Part shown: positions 6,694 to 37,461 of the stretch, piece after piece
Numbering within the stretch: position 1 is the first letter of the stretch
How the letters are laid out: each line of letters begins with the position of its first letter
Source of the DNA: Gemmatimonadota bacterium
GTDB lineage: Bacteria; Gemmatimonadota; Gemmatimonadetes; Gemmatimonadales; Gemmatimonadaceae
NCBI GenBank assembly: GCA_003223455.1
Contig: QHVE01000057.1
Span: 13,889-53,082 of the forward strand
DNA length: 39,194 nt
Reading direction: 5' to 3'
Position numbers and translations under genes: made by a program
The notes under the pieces: model-generated
What the model was told of the DNA's origin: nothing
Seen by the model: the letters and a program-made list of their open reading frames with translations, nothing else
Databases searched by the model: none

Positions 6694-6752
6694 GGTGAAG
6701 TGGTCAGGCAGCAACGGCCCAGCGAACCAACTCACCACCTCACCAACTCACC
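6694..6752. repeat. Octamer-type inverted repeat upstream of the DUF1080 gene
   Basis: Three tandem 8-bp units (AACTCACC, ACCTCACC, AACTCACC) fill 6729-6752. The first, with its preceding ACC, can pair with GGTGAAGTGGT at 6694-6704 (9 of 11 positions). The loop holds AACGGCC at 6713-6719, the same heptamer found in the hairpins at 7728, 9959 and 36119. It sits in the 258-bp divergent gap between the CBS gene and the DUF1080 gene. Confidence 0.6.
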
Positions 6753-7676: not shown

Positions 7677-7780
7677 CGAGTTGGTGAGTTGGATAGCTAG
7701 TTAGTCAGTCGGTGAGCTGGTGAACGGAACGGCCCTGGCGACAACCCACCAACCAACTCACCCTTTCACGACTCACCAGA
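7677..7780. repeat. Degenerate octamer inverted repeat between convergent genes
   Basis: GAGTTGGT-type units (7678-7721) face inverted units CCACCAACC and AACTCACC (7746-7762) and a further ACTCACC (7771-7777). GGTGAGCTGGT at 7711-7721 pairs with ACCAACTCACC at 7752-7762 with one mismatch. The 30-nt loop contains AACGGCC at 7728-7734. It fills the gap between the DUF1080 stop and the M13 peptidase stop, and the peptidase stop codon itself lies in the last unit. It is probably a bidirectional transcription end signal. Confidence 0.6.
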
Positions 7781-9806
7781 TCCGCGCTCGGGCTCCCTCC
7801 GGCCTCACCATCGCGTCCCCGTCCTTGCACCCAAACGCCCGCGCGAACTCGGGCATGTTCGACAGGGGGCCGTTCACGCGGAAACGGCCGGGCGAATGGG
7901 GGTCGGTCGCGACCATCATGCGCGCCGCCTCGGGGCGCAGCACGGTGAGTCGCGCGCGTGCGTAGGCGAGGAAGAACCGCTGCGCCGGGGTGAAGCCGTC
8001 GATCGTCGTCTGTGGCTTGCCGCGCATCGCGCGCTGCATCGCCTCGTAGGCGATCGATACGCCGACGACGTCGGCGATGTTCTCGCCGAGGGTGAGGCGC
8101 CCGTTGATGCGCAGTGTGTCGATCACGACGTAGGAACCGTACTGCCGCTCGACGATGCCGGCACGTTCGCCGTAGCGACGTGCGTCCTCCGGCGTCCACC
8201 AGTCGCGCACGTTGCCGCCCGCGTCGTACTTGCGGCCCGAGTCGTCGAAGCCGTGCGAGAGCTCGTGGCCGATCGTCGCGCCGATGCCGCCGTAGTTCGC
8301 CGGATCGTCGTACGTCACCGAGAAAAAAGGCGGCTGCAGCCGTCCCGCGGGGAAGACCACTTCGTTCAGCGCCGCGCTGTAGTACGCGTTCACCGTCGGC
8401 GCCGTCATCAGCCACTGGTCGCGGTCCACCGGCTTGCCCACGTGCGCGAGATCGCGCCTGATCTGATGCGCACGGGCACGCCGCATGTTGGCGGCATACG
8501 AGTCCGACAGCACCTCGAGCTCCGCGTAGTCCTGCCAGTGCTCGGGGTAGCCGATCTTCTGGTTGAACGAGGCGAGCTTCGCGAGCGCGTGCTCGCGCGT
8601 GCGGTCGCTCATCCAGTCCGCGCGCGTGATCCGGTCGTGCAGCACGTCGCGAAGGCTGCGCACGATCTCGAGCATCTTCGCCTTCGCCGCGGGGGTGAAC
8701 TCCGTCTTCACGTACTCGCGGCCCAGGGCATCACCAAGCGACAGATCGGTCGCGACGAGACACCGCCGCCACCGTGGCTGCTGCGCGCGCGTACCGGTCA
8801 GCATCGACGCGAGCCTGAACGATTCCTCGACGAACGGCGTGCTGAGCTGCGACGCGCTGCGCCAGAGCACCGTCCATCGCAGATACGCCTTCCAGTCGTC
8901 GAGCGACCGCGTCGCCAGTGCGCTGCCGAGCGCGGTGAAGAAGGGGGGCGCGTTGATCGTCACGGACTGAAGCTCCCCGAGCCCCATCGTGCCCAGGTAT
9001 CGTGCCCAGTCGAAGCCGGTCGCCGCGCTGGCCTCGGCGACGGTCATGTGATGGTAGCGCGCACCCGGGTCGCGAAGCGCGACGCGCGACAGCTGCGCCT
9101 TCGCCAGCGTGGTCTCGAGGTCGAGCACGCGCGCCGCGCGCGTCGCCGCCACCGACGCGGAATCACCGGCGAGCTCGAACATGCGGGCGATGCTCGCCTG
9201 ATAGCGCGTGCGCATCGACAGCGCGTCGGCGTCGGTGCGGAGGTAGTAGTCGCGGTCGGGGAGCCCGAGCCCGCCCTGCGTGGCGTAGGCGATGGCGAGC
9301 CGCGCGTCGCGCGGGTCCGCCGTCGAGCCGAAGCCGAACGCGCCCCCGTAGCCCAGCGAGTGCATGCGGGCCAGCTCGTCGCGCAGCTCGGTGCGGTCCG
9401 CGATGGCGTCGATGCGCCGAAGCTCGTCGGCGATCGGCTCGATCCCCGCCCGCTCCGCCGCCGTCGAGTCCATGCAGCTCGCGTAGAAGGCGCCGAGCTT
9501 GCGCGCGCTGGCGTCCGAAGTCGTCGCTGCCTGCTCGGCGGCGCGATCGAGGATGCCCTTCAGCACGAGTGTGTTCCGCTCGGTGAGCTCGTTGAATGCA
9601 CCCCAGCTCGAGAACGCGGGCGGGATCGGGTTCCGCTCGATCCAGCCGTTGTTGGCGAACATGAAGAAGTCCTGACACGCGCCGAACTTCCGGTCGATGC
9701 TCGACGGATCGAACGCCGGCATCGGGACGGCGCTCTGCGCGCCGAGCGGAGCGGCGAGGACGATCGCGAGGAACGGAACGAGTGCGCGGCGAATCGGCAT
9801 CGGCAT
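7773..9806 (-). CDS. M13 family (neprilysin/PepO-like) zinc metallopeptidase
   Basis: This 677-residue secreted peptidase has a Sec signal (MPMPIRRALV to APLGAQS, about 1-24) and the two-domain M13 layout. The N-terminal helical domain starts FDPSSIDRKFGACQDFFMFANNGWIERNPIP. The C-terminal domain has the substrate motif NAYY (N473), the zinc motif HELSH (H514, E515, H518) and the third ligand E575 in GENIADVVG. It ends DPHSPGRFRVNGPLSNMPEFARAFGC and a terminal RARIW in place of the usual CxVW. M13 enzymes cut short peptides on the outside of the inner membrane. The frame is open upstream through the octamer array, but the signal peptide fixes the start; a second ATG lies 6 nt further in. All catalytic residues are present. 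Confidence 0.95.
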   Translation of the reverse strand: MPMPIRRALVPFLAIVLAAPLGAQSAVPMPAFDPSSIDRKFGACQDFFMFANNGWIERNPIPPAFSSWGAFNELTERNTLVLKGILDRAAEQAATTSDASARKLGAFYASCMDSTAAERAGIEPIADELRRIDAIADRTELRDELARMHSLGYGGAFGFGSTADPRDARLAIAYATQGGLGLPDRDYYLRTDADALSMRTRYQASIARMFELAGDSASVAATRAARVLDLETTLAKAQLSRVALRDPGARYHHMTVAEASAATGFDWARYLGTMGLGELQSVTINAPPFFTALGSALATRSLDDWKAYLRWTVLWRSASQLSTPFVEESFRLASMLTGTRAQQPRWRRCLVATDLSLGDALGREYVKTEFTPAAKAKMLEIVRSLRDVLHDRITRADWMSDRTREHALAKLASFNQKIGYPEHWQDYAELEVLSDSYAANMRRARAHQIRRDLAHVGKPVDRDQWLMTAPTVNAYYSAALNEVVFPAGRLQPPFFSVTYDDPANYGGIGATIGHELSHGFDDSGRKYDAGGNVRDWWTPEDARRYGERAGIVERQYGSYVVIDTLRINGRLTLGENIADVVGVSIAYEAMQRAMRGKPQTTIDGFTPAQRFFLAYARARLTVLRPEAARMMVATDPHSPGRFRVNGPLSNMPEFARAFGCKDGDAMVRPEGARARIW

Positions 9807-9860
9807 CGGGTGACGGGACGACGATTCAATCTGGTGCGATGCTCGAGGATGCGCAGGGTA

Positions 9861-9924
9861 CGCGGGTGCGCGGGTGCGCGGGTGCGCGGGCGCGCGGGTG
9901 CGCGGGCGCGCGGGCGCGCGGGCG
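9861..9924. repeat. Eight-copy 8-bp tandem repeat CGCGGGYG
   Basis: Eight uninterrupted octamers fill exactly 64 bp: CGCGGGTG three times, CGCGGGCG, CGCGGGTG, then CGCGGGCG three times. Only the seventh base varies. The array lies 54 bp upstream of the M13 peptidase start and just beyond the strong hairpin at 9957-9996. The following bases GCGCGAAACGGC recur at 37781-37792. A copy-number-variable array this close to a start could affect expression, which is inference. Confidence 0.85.
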
Positions 9925-9956
9925 CGAAACGGCCGACGCATCGGATCTCGGACAGA

Positions 9957-9996
9957 CGAACGGCCTCGGGAAGGCGAAGCATCCCGAGGCCGTTCG
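9957..9996. terminator. Perfect 15-bp hairpin with AACGGCCTCGGGA tip, after the TonB-type receptor gene
   Basis: CGAACGGCCTCGGGA (9957-9971) and its exact complement (9982-9996) flank a 10-nt loop AGGCGAAGCA. It lies 29 bp beyond the receptor stop codon and is the likely transcript end of that gene. The 13-nt arm tip AACGGCCTCGGGA is identical to the tip of the hairpin at 36101-36172, and both loops are 10 nt. The loop contains GCGAAGC, a sequence known to form a very stable mini-hairpin in DNA. No T-tract is present. Confidence 0.75.
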
Positions 9997-10025
9997 CGCA
10001 CGCGCACGCGCGCGCTGACGCATCC

Positions 10026-29565: not shown

Positions 29566-30146
29566 CCGTCAGAATGCATCCCAGGGGACCGCCGCGAAAG
29601 TGCCTGCGCGCGATCGACCTCGGCGACGCGGCGCTCCGCCTCGCCCCACTCGATGGCCGGGGCGACGTCGGCGTCGGCGAGCCGCATCGACTCCACGGCG
29701 CGCTGCACCACCGGAGCCCCATCGGGGACGGCGAGCCCGAAATCGAGCTCGGCGCGGCGGCAGATGCGCTCGTGGCGCGCGCGCGCGTGGCTGAACGGCG
29801 TGACTCCGTACTTCTCGGCGAGGCGGTCGAGCCGTGCGTGCATCCCCTCGTGGACGAACGAGGCGGCGACCTGGGAGTCGGAGAACTGCTCGTTGGCCAT
29901 GAAGGTCAGCTCGAGCATGCACTGCCGCGTCTCGGGAAAGTAGGCAGCGCGGCACGCATAGCGCACGACGATGATGCCAGCGATGTCGCGCTGGATGTGG
30001 GCCAGGCGCCAGGGCTGGTACTGCTGCACCCGCGCGATCACCGCCTCCGCTCGCCGAAACACGCGCTCCGTGCTCACATCCTCGCGGGTGTTGAGCACTT
30101 CGACGACGATGCCCTGGATGACGCGGGAGTCGGGGCGTGGGGGCAT
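29562..30146 (-). CDS. Putative zinc-motif protein (HEGMH), family not recognised
   Basis: The 194-residue cytoplasmic protein has no signal peptide or membrane helix. Its strongest motif is SFVHEGMHARLDRLAEKYGV, which holds HExxH (H99, E100, H103) on a helix, as in zinc peptidases. Two Cys (C65, C76) lie in a strand-rich part before it (VVRYACRAAYFP, QCMLELTFM), and a later segment HARARHERICRRAELDFGL may give further ligands. Without a third ligand or family match, peptidase activity is unproven. The gene overlaps the next gene by 4 bp (ATGA). An octamer repeat begins 11 bp upstream of the start. Confidence 0.75.
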   Translation of the reverse strand: MPPRPDSRVIQGIVVEVLNTREDVSTERVFRRAEAVIARVQQYQPWRLAHIQRDIAGIIVVRYACRAAYFPETRQCMLELTFMANEQFSDSQVAASFVHEGMHARLDRLAEKYGVTPFSHARARHERICRRAELDFGLAVPDGAPVVQRAVESMRLADADVAPAIEWGEAERRVAEVDRAQALSRRSPGMHSDG

Positions 30147-30156
30147 GGAGGGAGTG

Positions 30157-30249
30157 GGTGAGTTGGTGAGTTGGTGAGTTGGTGAGTTGGTGAGCTGGTG
30201 AGTTGGTAAATCGAATTACCAATTCACCAGGTTACCAACTCACCAATTG
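30157..30249. repeat. GGTGAGTT octamer array facing its inverted copy
   Basis: Six tandem 8-bp units run from 30157 to 30204 (GGTGAGTT, one with a T to C change), followed by GGTAAATC. The right part (30214-30249) has AATTACC, AATTCACC, AGGTTACC, AACTCACC, AATTG, which are the reverse complements of the same unit with decay. The two halves can fold into a long hairpin with 8-nt periodicity. The element lies between the epimerase/NHL tail gene end and the HEGMH gene start. It is the clearest member of the family at 6694, 7677 and, in its hairpin form, 9957 and 36101. Confidence 0.85.
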
Positions 30250-30263
30250 TAGAAGCGGAGCGC

Positions 30264-30403
30264 TCAGTGTGTGGTTCGCGTCGGCCAGACGGTGCCCTGA
30301 TTCGGCTTCGTCACCGGCGCCAGGCCTTTGTAGACGAATTTCTGCAGGCGCTGCCCGCGATACGTCTCGGTCGTGTAGACGTTGCCCTTCGAGTCGGTGG
30401 CTT
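30264..30403 (-). pseudogene. C-terminal remnant of an NHL-type six-bladed beta-propeller gene
   Basis: Read in the frame that ends at 30264, this stretch encodes KATDSKGNVYTTETYRGQRL then QKFVYKGLAPVTKPNQGTVW, PTRTTH and a stop. DSxGNxYTxExxxGxRxQKFxxKG and a short Gln-Gly-Val-Trp-Pro-like end are typical of the last blade of secreted NHL/propeller proteins. No 5' part of that gene is present; its start is replaced by aldose epimerase sequence. The junction is at about 30400-30405. The frame differs from that of the epimerase, so the fused reading frame does not encode it. Confidence 0.8.
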
Positions 30404-31417
30404 TCCGGCGAAGCTGCCATCGAGGAAGTTGCCGGAATAGAACTGCACGCCGGGTTCCGTCGTATAGATGTCGAGCGTACGGCCGGTGGTCGGCTCGGTG
30501 ATGTGCGCGGCGTGCGAGAGCGCGGTACCAGCCGCACGGTCGAGCACGAAAGTGTGATCGTACCCGCGGCCGTACCGGATCTGGACGTGCGGGTCTTCGA
30601 TGCGGGCGCCGACGGCCGTCGGCTTGCGGAAGTCGAACGGCGTGCCGTCGACCGGCATCAGCGCACCAGTCGGGATGAGCGTCGAATCCACGGGCACGAT
30701 CGCGCTCGACTCGAGCGTCACCACGTGGCCGAGGACGTCACGCGATCCGTCGCCGGCGAGGTTCCAGTACGTGTGGTTCGTGAGGTTCACCGGCGTCGCC
30801 TTGTCCGTCGTCGCCTCGTAGTCGATCGCGAGCTCGTCGCGGTTGGTGAGCGTGTACGTCACCTTCGCGCGCAGCGTCCCGGGATAGCCCTCGTCCCCAT
30901 CCGGACTGGTGTGCGTGAGGACGACGCCGACGCCGCTGTCGCTGCTGAATGGCTGCGCCGTCCACACGACCTTGTCGAACCCCTTGATCCCGCCGTGCAG
31001 ATGGTTCGGCCCGTTGTTGATCGCGAGCGTGTACGTCTTCCCATCCAGCGTGAAGCGTCCGCGCGCGATGCGGTTGCCATACCGGCCGACGATCGCACCG
31101 AAGTAGGGAGAGCTCTTCACATAGCCCTGCAGGTCGTCGAAACCGAGCACGACGTCGTCGAGCTTGCCGGCGCGATCGGGTGTCTCGATCGACTGCACGA
31201 TCCCGCCGTACGTCAGGATACGCGTGCGAATGCCGTGGGTGTTGACGAGGGTGTAGGCGTCGACCGGCGTGCCGTCGGGCGCCGTGCCGAACGGCGCGCG
31301 AGTGACGCTGGCGGCCGTTGTGGCGGCAGCGGGAGGACGCTCCTTCGTGCAGGCGAGCGCCAGCATTGCGGATGCGGCAAGGCTGGCCGCGATCGCGCGG
31401 CGTCGGGCGAGGGTCAT
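30311..31417 (-). CDS. galM: Aldose 1-epimerase lipoprotein, C-terminus replaced
   Basis: GalM interconverts alpha and beta anomers of aldoses. The protein has a lipoprotein signal (MLALAC, C23), then GTPVDAYTLVN, YGGIVQSIETPDR, VVLGFDDLQGY, FGAIVGRYGNRIARGRF, PNHLHGGIKGFD (catalytic-region His), PVNLTNHTYWNLAG (second His) and TTEPGVQFYSGNFLDGS (the catalytic Glu). Homology stops at FAGK. A normal GalM has about 45 more residues (CLETQHFPD, then a strand-rich end). Here the frame reads PPTRRATSTRPRRIAG and stops at 30311, from joined NHL-gene DNA. The three catalytic residues remain, but loss of the final strands probably destroys activity. The ATG at 31417 is fixed by the signal peptide. 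Confidence 0.85.
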   Translation of the reverse strand: MTLARRRAIAASLAASAMLALACTKERPPAAATTAASVTRAPFGTAPDGTPVDAYTLVNTHGIRTRILTYGGIVQSIETPDRAGKLDDVVLGFDDLQGYVKSSPYFGAIVGRYGNRIARGRFTLDGKTYTLAINNGPNHLHGGIKGFDKVVWTAQPFSSDSGVGVVLTHTSPDGDEGYPGTLRAKVTYTLTNRDELAIDYEATTDKATPVNLTNHTYWNLAGDGSRDVLGHVVTLESSAIVPVDSTLIPTGALMPVDGTPFDFRKPTAVGARIEDPHVQIRYGRGYDHTFVLDRAAGTALSHAAHITEPTTGRTLDIYTTEPGVQFYSGNFLDGSFAGKPPTRRATSTRPRRIAGSACRNSSTKAWRR

Positions 31418-31542
31418 GCGCGGTCTCTCGTGGAGGCGGTCGTAGCGGGCCGCCGCGCGGAGTGCGCGACGTCGATGCGCGGTGAAGATGTCGCGACCGT
31501 TTCCAGTTGGCGAGTGAGTGCGTGCGCCGTTTCCAGAAGTTG

Positions 31543-31863
31543 CTATGCGGCGAGCGATCGATCGAGCAGCTCGGCGAGCAGGCCCGCGGTGCCAGCGGGT
31601 CCGGTGACGTCGAGCGTGAGCGAGTTGCCCCCGAGCGCGAGCCCGACGCGGAACTCGAGGAACGGGCAGCACTCACGCTCGCGGCGCACGACGGCATCGA
31701 TCTGCCGCATGCGTTCCGCCGTCGCCGGAAAGCGGAGCCGCATGCCGCTGGCGAGCGCAGTGCGCTGGACGGCGTGGTCGGCCAATCCGACGAGAAGCGT
31801 CTCGCGCTGGGCGGCAAGCTGCCGGGCGGACAGGGAACAGGCGATGGGAAGCGTCGTCGTCAT
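31543..31863 (-). CDS. Small cysteine-motif protein (ERECCPFLEF)
   Basis: The 106-residue cytoplasmic protein has a lone Cys near the start (IACSLSARQLAAQRETLL), an Arg-rich amphipathic helix, and the motif RRERECCPFLEFRVGLAL, then LTLDVTGPAGTAGLLAELLD. The layout (Cys, then ER-x-CC-x-F-L-x-F, then a GP-G turn) is shared by many small bacterial proteins that I have seen beside metal-resistance genes; I cannot name the family with certainty. Paired cysteines suggest metal or redox binding. The frame is open upstream to 32439, overlapping a kinase gene, so the ATG at 31863 is chosen. No neighbour shares its direction closely. Confidence 0.6.
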   Translation of the reverse strand: MTTTLPIACSLSARQLAAQRETLLVGLADHAVQRTALASGMRLRFPATAERMRQIDAVVRRERECCPFLEFRVGLALGGNSLTLDVTGPAGTAGLLAELLDRSLAA

Positions 31864-34990: not shown

Positions 34991-36082
34991 ATGCGACTGT
35001 CCCCGACGTTCGCGTTCGTCACGAGCCTCTGCTGCTCACCGGTCGTTCTCCGCGCGCAAGCCGCCGACGACCCGCCCCCGATCACGGCGCAGGAGATCGT
35101 TCAGCGCTACATCGCCGCACGCGGCGGGCTGGAGCAGCTGCGCGCGATCCGCACGCTCGACATGCGCGGCCCGCCGAGGCCGAACGGCCGTCCGGGACGA
35201 CGGATCCTCCGCGCGCGTCCGTTCTATCTGAACGTCGGCGCCGAGGGGAACGACGGATCGCCCTGGGAAGCGTACGACGAGTCGGGCCTGGAGCCGCGCG
35301 TGACCGACGCGCCCGGCGCCGCGCTCCGCCACACCGCGTACTTCGACGATCCGCTCGTCATGACGCTCGAGCCGGGATGGAATGTCGAGCTCACCGGCTC
35401 GGAGCGGATCGGCGACCGCGACGCATGGCGGCTTCGCGTCACGTATCCCGACGGCTTCGTCAACGAGTCGTTCATCGACAAGGCGAGCTGGCTGCTGATC
35501 GCGCGGCGCATGACGGCGCCAGTGCATGCGTTCGGGGCGAGCGTGACGGGGCAGGCGCTCATCGGGGACTACCGTCCGGTGAACGGCGTGCTCTTCCCGT
35601 TCGCGCTGCGCGAGGTGGACCTCGCGACCGGTGCGGTGATGGACAACTTCACCTGGGCGACGATCGAAGCGAACGCGCCGCTGGACTACGCGGTGTTCTC
35701 GCCTCCGGTGCGGACGGCGACGCCGGTGTCGCGGCTCGTCAACGGCATCTTCGCTTCACGCCACGTCACCGCCGACGCACTCGGCTGGTATCACGATTTT
35801 CTGCGCGACCCCGCGACGGCGACGGTCGACATCGAGGCGGCGATCGAATCGGTGGGCTACGAATGTCTGAAGAATGGCGCCGTCGCGACGGGCACCGCGC
35901 TGCTCGAGGAGAACCTCCGCGCGCACTCGACCTCCGCACGCGCGCACTTCGGCGTGGGTCGCGCCTATCGCGCCGCGGGCCGCGAGGCCGACGCGCAGGA
36001 ACGGTTCCGCGAAGCGCTCCGACTGGATCCGACGCTCGACGCGGCGAAGCAGGCGCTCGCGTCGCGGGTGCTGTGGTATTGA
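34991..36082 (+). CDS. Secreted LolA-like protein with C-terminal TPR
   Basis: The 363-residue protein has a signal peptide (MRLSPTFAFVTSLCCSPVVL then RAQA). An N-terminal domain shows ITAQEIVQRYIAARGGLEQL, typical of LolA-like proteins and carrier-like outer-membrane lipoprotein sorters. Its beta-sheet part has GERIGDRDAWRLRVTYPDGF, LLIARRM and IGDYRPVNGVLFPFALRE (the classical strand near the end of these domains). The C-terminus (about 325-360) is a TPR pair: ARAHFGVGRAYRAAGREADA and RFREALRLDPTLDAAKQAL. Likely role: lipid or protein carriage in the periplasm; no partner is visible. The frame is open upstream to 34847 but without a signal peptide, so ATG 34991 is used. It ends before the 36101-36172 hairpin. 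Confidence 0.83.
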   Translation: MRLSPTFAFVTSLCCSPVVLRAQAADDPPPITAQEIVQRYIAARGGLEQLRAIRTLDMRGPPRPNGRPGRRILRARPFYLNVGAEGNDGSPWEAYDESGLEPRVTDAPGAALRHTAYFDDPLVMTLEPGWNVELTGSERIGDRDAWRLRVTYPDGFVNESFIDKASWLLIARRMTAPVHAFGASVTGQALIGDYRPVNGVLFPFALREVDLATGAVMDNFTWATIEANAPLDYAVFSPPVRTATPVSRLVNGIFASRHVTADALGWYHDFLRDPATATVDIEAAIESVGYECLKNGAVATGTALLEENLRAHSTSARAHFGVGRAYRAAGREADAQERFREALRLDPTLDAAKQALASRVLWY

Positions 36083-36100
36083 AGGCGGTGAGGGGTGAAT

Positions 36101-36172
36101 GGTGTGGTGGTGAGTGGCAACGGCCTCGGGAAGCTATTGCCTCCCGAGGCCGTTGCCACTCACCACTACACC
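36101..36172. terminator. 31-bp hairpin with AACGGCCTCGGGA tip between convergent genes
   Basis: The left arm (36101-36131, GGTGTGGTGGTGAGTGGC then AACGGCCTCGGGA) and the right arm (36142-36172) pair over 31 bp with one mismatch, around a 10-nt loop (AGCTATTGCC). The base of the stem has GGTGAGT, as in the octamer repeats, and the tip has the 13-nt AACGGCCTCGGGA shared with 9957-9996. It separates the LolA-like gene (stop 36082) from the DcaP-like gene (stop 36181). It is probably a two-way terminator and also a member of the repeat family. Confidence 0.85.
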
Positions 36173-36180
36173 ACCAGCCG

Positions 36181-37461
36181 CTACTTCTGCGCCACCGTTC
36201 CGTTCTTGAACGTCACCCCGAAGTTGTACTTGAAACCGAACTGCATCTTGAAGTCGTTCGAGTTGAAGCCATCGCTGAAGTTGTCGCGGCGTACCCATTG
36301 GAGCTCGCCACCGACCATGATGTTCTTCGCCGGCGTGGCCAGCAGGTTGAGCGAGGCGTACTGACCGTCCCTGAAGGCGGCCGGCGCCTGGCCCGAGCTG
36401 TTGGTGATGTCGACGCGCGAGTAGCCGATCGCCGTGCTCAGGAACTTGTTCCAGGTGTGATCGAGGTAGAGCACCAGCCCGAACACGGGGAGCGGGGTCG
36501 CTTCGATCGGGCGGAACCGCTCTCCCGTGTTGATCTTGGGACCGACGTCTGCCGGCGCATCGTTGAAGTAGTTCTCGATGCCTTCGCCGTACACGGCCTG
36601 GAAGCGAACGACATTCGACTGGCTGGGCTTGTAGTTCGAGCTGAGGCTGAGTCCCCAACCGAGCATGCTCTTGTTCAGATCGAATGTGTCCGCGAGCAGA
36701 TCGTCGAGCTCCATCGCGCGGAGGATTCCCGCCAGCTCGACGTAGCCCCAGTTCGTGCCGTGCCGATACTCCGCCGAGAGGTCCGGGAGCGGGAAGCGCG
36801 CCTTGACGTTCTGGAGCTCGATGCGATCCGCGTAGTTGCCCTGATCGCCGCTGGCGCCGGGTCGCTCGAGCGCGATCGACGCTTTCGAGTTGTGGTTCCC
36901 CTGGTTGGGCAGGATCGGCATCCAGCGCGCCTGCGGCTGACGGAAGTAGAGCATGCCGGCCGGGCCCCAGTACTCGAGGATGTTCGGGAACACGTCGCCG
37001 TCCATGAACGGGCTGTCAGCCTGGCCGGCACCGAAGTGGCCGATCTCTCCCCACATGGTGCGTGGACGGATCGTCGTCTGTCCCGCGTCGACGCCGACAC
37101 CGTACAGATCGAACTCGAACGTCGTCTTCAGCGACCCCAAGGCGGTCGGGATCGTGCTCTTCGCGCCGAGCTTGGATTGCCGGACGCCGGCATAGAAGCG
37201 GCCGTCCTTTCCGAACTCGTCTTCCGCCGCGGGCAGCTTCGAGGGGCGGAGGGCGTCGAACCAGTCCGGGTTGCTCTGGCCGAACTCGAAGAGCATGTCG
37301 GCCATGACGAAGCCGTACAGGTCGAAGGTCGGCCCCGACGCGTCCTGCGCTTTGGCTGTCGGCGCCACGACCGCCAACCCGAGCACGCAGACGATACCAG
37401 CGACGACTCGCCGTATCGCGTTCGTCGGACGTACGATCATACCGCGTTGCGCATGAAACAT
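36181..37461 (-). CDS. DcaP-like trimeric outer-membrane porin
   Basis: The 426-residue protein has a signal peptide (to about residue 40, LGLAVVAPTAKAQD). The start reads FDLYGFVMADMLFEFGQSNP, which matches the DcaP family. Alternating beta strands follow (TTFEFDLYGVGVDAGQTTIR, WGPAGMLYFRQPQARWMPIL, ALERPG, SAEYRHGTNWGYVELAGIL, LGWGLSLSSNYKPSQSNVVR, VFGLVLYLDHTWNKFLSTAI), ending MQFGFKYNFGVTFKNGTVAQ, then K. DcaP proteins are channels for dicarboxylates and other anions. GAGGGGAG precedes the ATG at 37461 by a few bases. No transporter gene is beside it. The last residues are not the canonical F-terminal strand. Confidence 0.9.
   Translation of the reverse strand: MFHAQRGMIVRPTNAIRRVVAGIVCVLGLAVVAPTAKAQDASGPTFDLYGFVMADMLFEFGQSNPDWFDALRPSKLPAAEDEFGKDGRFYAGVRQSKLGAKSTIPTALGSLKTTFEFDLYGVGVDAGQTTIRPRTMWGEIGHFGAGQADSPFMDGDVFPNILEYWGPAGMLYFRQPQARWMPILPNQGNHNSKASIALERPGASGDQGNYADRIELQNVKARFPLPDLSAEYRHGTNWGYVELAGILRAMELDDLLADTFDLNKSMLGWGLSLSSNYKPSQSNVVRFQAVYGEGIENYFNDAPADVGPKINTGERFRPIEATPLPVFGLVLYLDHTWNKFLSTAIGYSRVDITNSSGQAPAAFRDGQYASLNLLATPAKNIMVGGELQWVRRDNFSDGFNSNDFKMQFGFKYNFGVTFKNGTVAQK

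Follow-up and report, generated by a model that had tools for sequence, protein, structure and literature searches.

A facing octamer array in a Gemmatimonadota genome as a probable decayed copy of a dispersed palindromic element with a four-helix-bundle gene-bearing partner

Introduction

How an array of 8-bp words comes to face its own inverted copy between two genes, and whether such a structure is a local accident or one of a family, is the question raised by positions 30157-30249 of the window, the 39,194-nt stretch analysed here, which is part of contig C23 in a 4.96-Mb draft genome of 127 contigs from a Gemmatimonadota bacterium. A sequence-only reading had described the site as six octamer units running into decayed inverted ones, had pointed to related sites elsewhere in the window, and had placed the structure in a class that it did not recognise. 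Membership of the window array in a dispersed family is well supported by the comparisons below. The reading that we favour, with a probability of about 0.65, sees the array pair as the decayed remains of one copy, now lacking its core, of a dispersed palindromic element; the element would resemble REPINs and MITEs and have a partner that bears a four-helix-bundle gene.

Structure and fold of the array pair

The left arm lies on the plus strand at 30152-30207, where Tandem Repeats Finder reports a period of 8, 7.0 copies and 93% matches. Repeat finding and the inverted-pair search agree on a tandem array of about seven units of GGTGAGTT, and the stretch 30157-30204 consists of five exact GGTGAGTT units (starting at 30157, 30165, 30173, 30181 and 30197) and one GGTGAGCT at 30189. 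Opposite, on the minus strand at 30213-30246, is a right arm of decayed inverted octamers (TTACCAAT TCACCAGG TTACCAAC TCACCAA), in which four decayed units at 30218-30246 keep the 8-bp spacing of the left array. The two arms meet in a best inverted pair of 34 + 34 nt (30179-30212 with 30213-30246) that is 88% complementary and has zero spacer, so the array meeting its inverted units was read correctly from the sequence. The long hairpin proposed for the site is also borne out by folding, with a predicted -55.4 kcal/mol for plus-strand RNA (z -8.6, equalled by 0 of 200 shuffles) and -29.7 for DNA (z -9.5). Across the window, GGTGAGTT occurs 41 times with at most one mismatch, against 16.9 expected and a maximum of 27 in 100 shuffles.

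The array pair lies between two tandem genes, both on the minus strand and therefore not convergent. One of them has its called start at 30146, some 6 bp away from the array, and an N-terminus unlike that of the orthologue in the congener G007. The other (30311-31672), set against its G007 orthologue, seems to contain a frameshift or assembly error near 30400, at the 3′ end, and its true stop may be closer to the array. No terminator-like site, that is, a GC-rich stem-loop followed by a U-tract, is called at 30050-30400, and Rfam gives 0 matches above the gathering score in the window and in three further sequences (L005, L009 and L028), which places the structure neither among intrinsic terminators nor in a known Rfam family.

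A dispersed palindromic element of about 176 bp

The doubled octamer GGTGAGTTGGTGAGTT, or GGTGAGTT twice, matches 49 times (19 + 30) in the 4.96-Mb genome and 0 times in the reversed control. Among relatives it is present in one of nine congeners (G007, 54 matches) and in none of 89 others. With octamer runs this abundant elsewhere in the genome, a single local slippage product can be dismissed. At other loci a palindromic element of about 176 bp begins and ends with these arrays, with a core between them at most loci inspected. The octamer array, first taken as the unit, is better described as an arm, and the unit is the larger dispersed element, whose hairpin core is conserved. We recovered 35 full-size copies with a mean identity of 0.79, all with the same word order and core, and with length differences in 8-bp steps. 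The arms keep the octamer register and carry variant words in a fixed order (GGTGAGTT GGTGAGTT GGATAGTT AGTGAGTT GGTCGGTG AACTAGTG ...), a long hairpin (AACGGCCCTGG...CCAGGGCCGTT) makes up the core, and one complete copy has a predicted folding energy of -118.6 kcal/mol (z -13.3). A core subfamily at C69:63784, C113:79905, C43:78502 and C109:38574 has GGCACGTGCCACGAACCAGCGT in place of GGCCCTGG, which indicates at least two core lineages.

Against these full copies, the window copy consists of arms only: the core is gone, and GGTAAATCGAATTACC stands at the centre in its place. Further core-less copies exist, for example at C97:28131-28190, and very long arrays are found at C66 and C47. The two related sites in the window are likewise real members of this intergenic, recurring family and carry the same words, though they are degenerate. 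By sequence comparison, 7677-7780 is an internally deleted copy that keeps a left arm with the ordered variant words, the start of the core (GAACGGCCCTGGCGACAACC), AACGGCCCTGGCGACAACC and part of the right arm; it occupies a convergent gap, and the minus-strand gene at 7773-9806 ends on a TGA within it. The copy at 6694-6752 is heavily decayed, with GGTGAAGTGGT, a relic of the core (AACGGCCC) and a right arm of AACTCACC-like units at 6729-6752.

Selection on the structure of each copy was considered and rejected. Covariation across the 35 copies is weak (4 double-change pairs, against a shuffle mean of 1.8 and maximum of 5), and arms pair no better within a copy than between copies (self -104.5, cross -108.4 kcal/mol). 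Together, these results indicate that structure is not constrained within single copies, and the pairing comparison makes the copies look like relics decaying after arrival and not like maintained sites. That the arms of a copy are not co-maintained argues against a per-copy function.

The same architecture occurs with other words. A near-perfect hairpin at 36085-36180 (DNA fold z -11.7), with arms GGTGTGGTGGTGAGTGGC / GCCACTCACCACTACACC of GTGGTGAGTGGC words around the AACGGCCTCGGG core hairpin AACGGCCTCGGGAAGC...GAGGCCGTT, exactly spans the gap between the convergent genes 34991-36082 (+) and 36181-37386 (-). What looks like a further relative with a different word lies at 9850-10018, with a TGCGCGGG octamer array at 9850-9926, a hairpin AACGGCCTCGGGAAGG...GAGGCCGTT at 9959-9994, and CGCGCACG units on the right. 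GTGGTTT, a second word of the genome, also forms core-less copies (L168, L173). In four mixed elements of G007 (L105, L112, L117 and L248) an AACGGCCTCGGG hairpin is flanked by GGTGAGTT words to one side and by GCATCCCC words to the other, and at L109 the end of a four-helix-bundle element (L138) is joined to a GGTGAGTT array. Another intergenic octamer family, AGTGACTC, is present in the window's own genome at C70:54003, C115:66375, C66:44617 and C23:68835, and no four-helix-bundle partner for it was found there.

Placement at gene ends

Full copies are concentrated in convergent gaps, with 17 of 34 scored copies so placed, whereas 106 of 758 neighbouring gene pairs are convergent in 855 kb of this genome (Fisher test, p 1.5e-6), the genes having been called by a simple codon-usage script whose individual calls may be wrong. 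Of 68 element ends, 48 have a gene reading inwards, and for 46 of these genes the stop codon lies between -23 and +13 bp of the edge, with 19 of the 46 stops being a TGA within the element's own GTGAG word. These edges may reflect annealing of the GTGA of the word to a native TGA stop, or mere tolerance of insertion there. An unbiased scan for 7/8-bp arrays gave 0.57 per 100 kb of coding and 19.7 per 100 kb of intergenic DNA, three of its 20 rows being runs of N that the Fisher test excludes. The position near transcript ends or starts that had been suggested for the arrays holds as nearness to gene ends, and for full copies the link is with stop codons in particular, more than with the starts or ends of transcripts at large.

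In G007, the gene pair at the window site is syntenic (78-79% identity) with no array between the genes, a comparison with one outgroup that cannot separate gain from loss. At a second site, the convergent slot C66:37121-37362, the GGTGAGTT element is found in none of the five congeners in which the slot can be read. G001, G003 and G007 each hold a hairpin built from different words, and in G004 and G009 the matched gene ends are only 45 and 81 bp apart. The different word hairpins point to reuse of the slot by different word families; they could also mean a local process, which counts against the reading that we favour. No target-site duplication was seen at the slots compared, where the congeners are too diverged, and no transposition event was seen.

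It is for this placement that the best-surviving alternative speaks, namely that the elements are repeat-built bidirectional transcription terminators or 3′-end stabilisers, selected at convergent gene ends. The excess in convergent gaps, the element edges at stop codons and the occurrence of different hairpins in one convergent slot in different species would all be accounted for, and the compact GC-rich hairpin AACGGCCTCGGGAAGC...GAGGCCGTT, found within many G007 and some G000 elements, is in keeping with it. We nevertheless consider it unlikely, given the weak covariation and the self-versus-cross pairing, the lack of a called terminator-like site at 30050-30400 and the position of the window copy between tandem genes; it also leaves unexplained both the sequence shared by dozens of loci and the four-helix-bundle genes.

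A partner bearing a four-helix-bundle gene

Five PF05635 genes are present in the genome, and GGTGAGTT ends are found on only one of them. This gene, L100 (C20:13271-13585), has a GGTGAGTT array on one side and the inverted copy of that array on the other, in a span of about 585-590 bp, the right end of which is 78-88% identical over 59-80 nt to many gene-less copies. Another PF05635 gene, L101, has GTGGTTT arrays on either side. The encoded proteins match PF05635 and TIGR02436 (23S_rRNA_IVP, the S23 protein family), a family known since the 1990s and, to our knowledge, without an assigned function. They also match the solved protein XCC0516 (2GSC, E 3e-18), for which the title of its paper, cited in PMC3936711, gives five four-helix bundles as the quaternary structure.

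The identity of this partner bears on a second alternative, by which the elements would be REPs or REPINs proper, palindromes spread by a Y1 (RAYT) transposase. The layout is the same, hairpin-forming inverted doublets in intergenic DNA (PMC3116915), and the genome does contain one Y1_Tnp gene. That gene (C32, L099), however, has neither octamers nor core within 1.5 kb, although REPs are by definition found at the flanks of their RAYT genes, and the ends in question belong to a PF05635 gene. We hold this explanation to be improbable. Slightly less probable again is that a host DNA- or RNA-binding protein, either IHF/HU-like or a post-transcriptional regulator, binds the arrays. Opposed pairs of four tandem octamers in Geobacter metallireducens are predicted to be sites of a global regulator (PMC2700814), and intergenic TAACTGA repeats in Beggiatoaceae have been discussed as regulatory (PMC4679880); here, by contrast, full copies sit at gene 3′ ends and not at promoters, the word changes completely between congeners, and the arms are not co-maintained. 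Least probable of all, and already disfavoured, is local growth of each array through slippage during replication and template switching at a small hairpin. The shifts in copy number by whole words and the very long arrays at C66 and C47 speak for it as an account of array length only; the same word, variant-word order and core recur at dozens of unlinked loci, and the doubled octamer is matched 49 times against none in the reversed control.

Association of four-helix-bundle genes with facing arrays

For a wider comparison, 63 four-helix-bundle genes were picked regardless of their flanks, from PF05635 matches in relatives and from 14 named MAG loci, covering Gemmatimonadaceae and relatives, Gallionella, Nitrospira and Bacteroidetes. 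Inverted flanks lie above the 99th percentile of 834 control windows (1% of controls) in 51 of the 63 and beyond the control maximum in 28, in a test that favoured high-scoring family matches and whose control windows came from any setting, not from intergenic DNA only. Where tandem words are present at the flanks, their period is mostly 7 or 8; L131, L138 and L139 are among the genes that have long inverted ends without clear tandem words. Some flanks are asymmetric, with different words on the two sides (G007) or words on one side only (G014). Plasmid-borne genes, mostly cyanobacterial, are clearly above the local control maximum in 10 of 15 cases, often with plain heptamers, as for the TAGGGAG heptamers at the gene on Nostoc edaphicum pNe_5, between ribonucleotide reductase genes. 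The gene of N. edaphicum CCNP1411 (L317) and those of Gemmatirosa kalamazoonensis (L136, L182), both cultured organisms, each lie between facing arrays. No match to the four-helix-bundle protein was found in phages.

A different word in each genome is the rule, and partner words can be dispersed in their own genomes: GTGGTTT in G000, and AGCGG words with a GGTACC-type end in G007. GCAGAGT has 221 matches in G014 and 0 in four other genomes. Coevolution of protein and word was rejected, with no overall correlation between word similarity and protein identity (Spearman 0.006) and with word sharing tending to occur only between proteins at least 80% identical.

On plasmids of Pseudanabaena galeata, Picosynechococcus PCC 7003 and Anabaena 90, inverted-repeat-flanked four-helix-bundle genes (L316, L318 and L328) sit in cas loci, with cas6/cas4 or cas10/cmr3 on either side. 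The arrays around these genes suggest insertion into a cas operon, and such array-bounded insertion would explain why the family turns up in cas loci, where PF05635 genes had been noted earlier (PMC3936711). We found no paper that ties four-helix-bundle genes to tandem words, in a search that subscription journals mostly fell outside, and the novelty of the link is provisional.

A candidate mechanism

If the array pair is indeed a relic of a mobile palindromic element, copies would spread to new places and land at gene 3′ ends beside stop codons, after which whole words would be gained or lost by slippage, the core could be deleted, and decay would follow. The partner of about 590 bp, which has the same ends, carries the 23S_rRNA_IVP (S23) gene; its product, an oligomer in the solved relative, may bind the facing-array hairpin as single-stranded DNA or RNA and could help to copy it into a new site by way of host enzymes. 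We infer that copies moved by transposition, and the copying route is proposed in the same way. A resident reverse transcriptase was rejected as that route, with 0 matches to PF00078 in the 96%-complete genome. The combination of no reverse transcriptase and an unlinked Y1 transposase favours protein-assisted copying of hairpin-forming single-stranded DNA or RNA. That the four-helix-bundle protein is the mobiliser is a step that, taken alone, we put forward as a tentative suggestion, with the odds rather against it; we know of no nuclease or recombinase activity for this fold. Its strong association with facing arrays, which spans several phyla, and the dozens to hundreds of copies of the same words within one genome nonetheless give the S23 family a candidate role in the spreading of DNA.

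Comparison with known systems

No description of the class as such was found, which agrees with its having gone unrecognised, and scattered precedents do exist. REPINs and their RAYT genes offer the closest layout: intergenic, hairpin-forming short inverted doublets that are dispersed, lineage-specific in sequence and accompanied by a gene-bearing partner with the same flanks (Bertels and Rainey, 2011; PMC3116915). The dispersed inverted doublets are found here, and a repeat-flanked Y1/RAYT gene is not: the arms are tandem 7/8-bp words in variable number, in contrast to the 16-25 bp palindromes of REPINs, and the partner is a PF05635 four-helix-bundle gene and not a Y1 transposase. As in MITEs, the copies are small, numerous and free of an ORF, with terminal inverted repeats and ends common to a larger gene-bearing element, which in this case encodes no recognised transposase.

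The 23S rRNA intervening sequences (IVSs) share the protein. The Coxiella IVS has a PF05635/TIGR02436 ORF in the loop of a stem made by complementary ends, in 400-600 bp. Adjoining the ORF are tandem heptamers (GACAGAT), variable from strain to strain, and the origin of IVSs is debated (PMC4990558). An S23 ORF between complementary ends is likewise found in the L100 element and at 51 of the 63 genes, and not in the gene-less window copy. IVSs lie inside rRNA helices, from which RNase III removes them, whereas protein-gene ends are the setting of L100 and of the full copies here, and many copies are gene-less.

In Geobacter metallireducens, four tandem octamers (GTTGCTYN) are paired on opposite strands in intergenic DNA, and a GGGACCG heptamer element has 49 intergenic copies; the elements there are read as IHF/HU regulatory sites, and mention of four-helix-bundle genes was not found in the text (PMC2700814). 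The TAACTGA repeats of Beggiatoaceae are also abundant, lineage-specific and intergenic 7-mers, with the difference that nearly all are direct, lie upstream of start codons and have no predicted fold (PMC4679880).

Lineage-specific 7-mers that are abundant in intergenic DNA also make up the STRR-type heptamers of cyanobacteria. Heptamers of this kind flank the cyanobacterial plasmid four-helix-bundle genes described above, and STRRs and these genes may belong together. In essence, four-helix-bundle (S23/23S_rRNA_IVP) genes with facing 7/8-bp arrays could form a widespread class of minimal mobile element, with no recognised transposase, that seeds many genomes with gene-less hairpins at stop codons and unites the 23S IVSs with the lineage-specific heptamer and octamer repeats of cyanobacteria, Geobacter and others, a generalisation to which we give somewhat less than even odds. 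Short tandem repeats that were described independently of one another and interpreted as regulatory sites would then have one possible origin.
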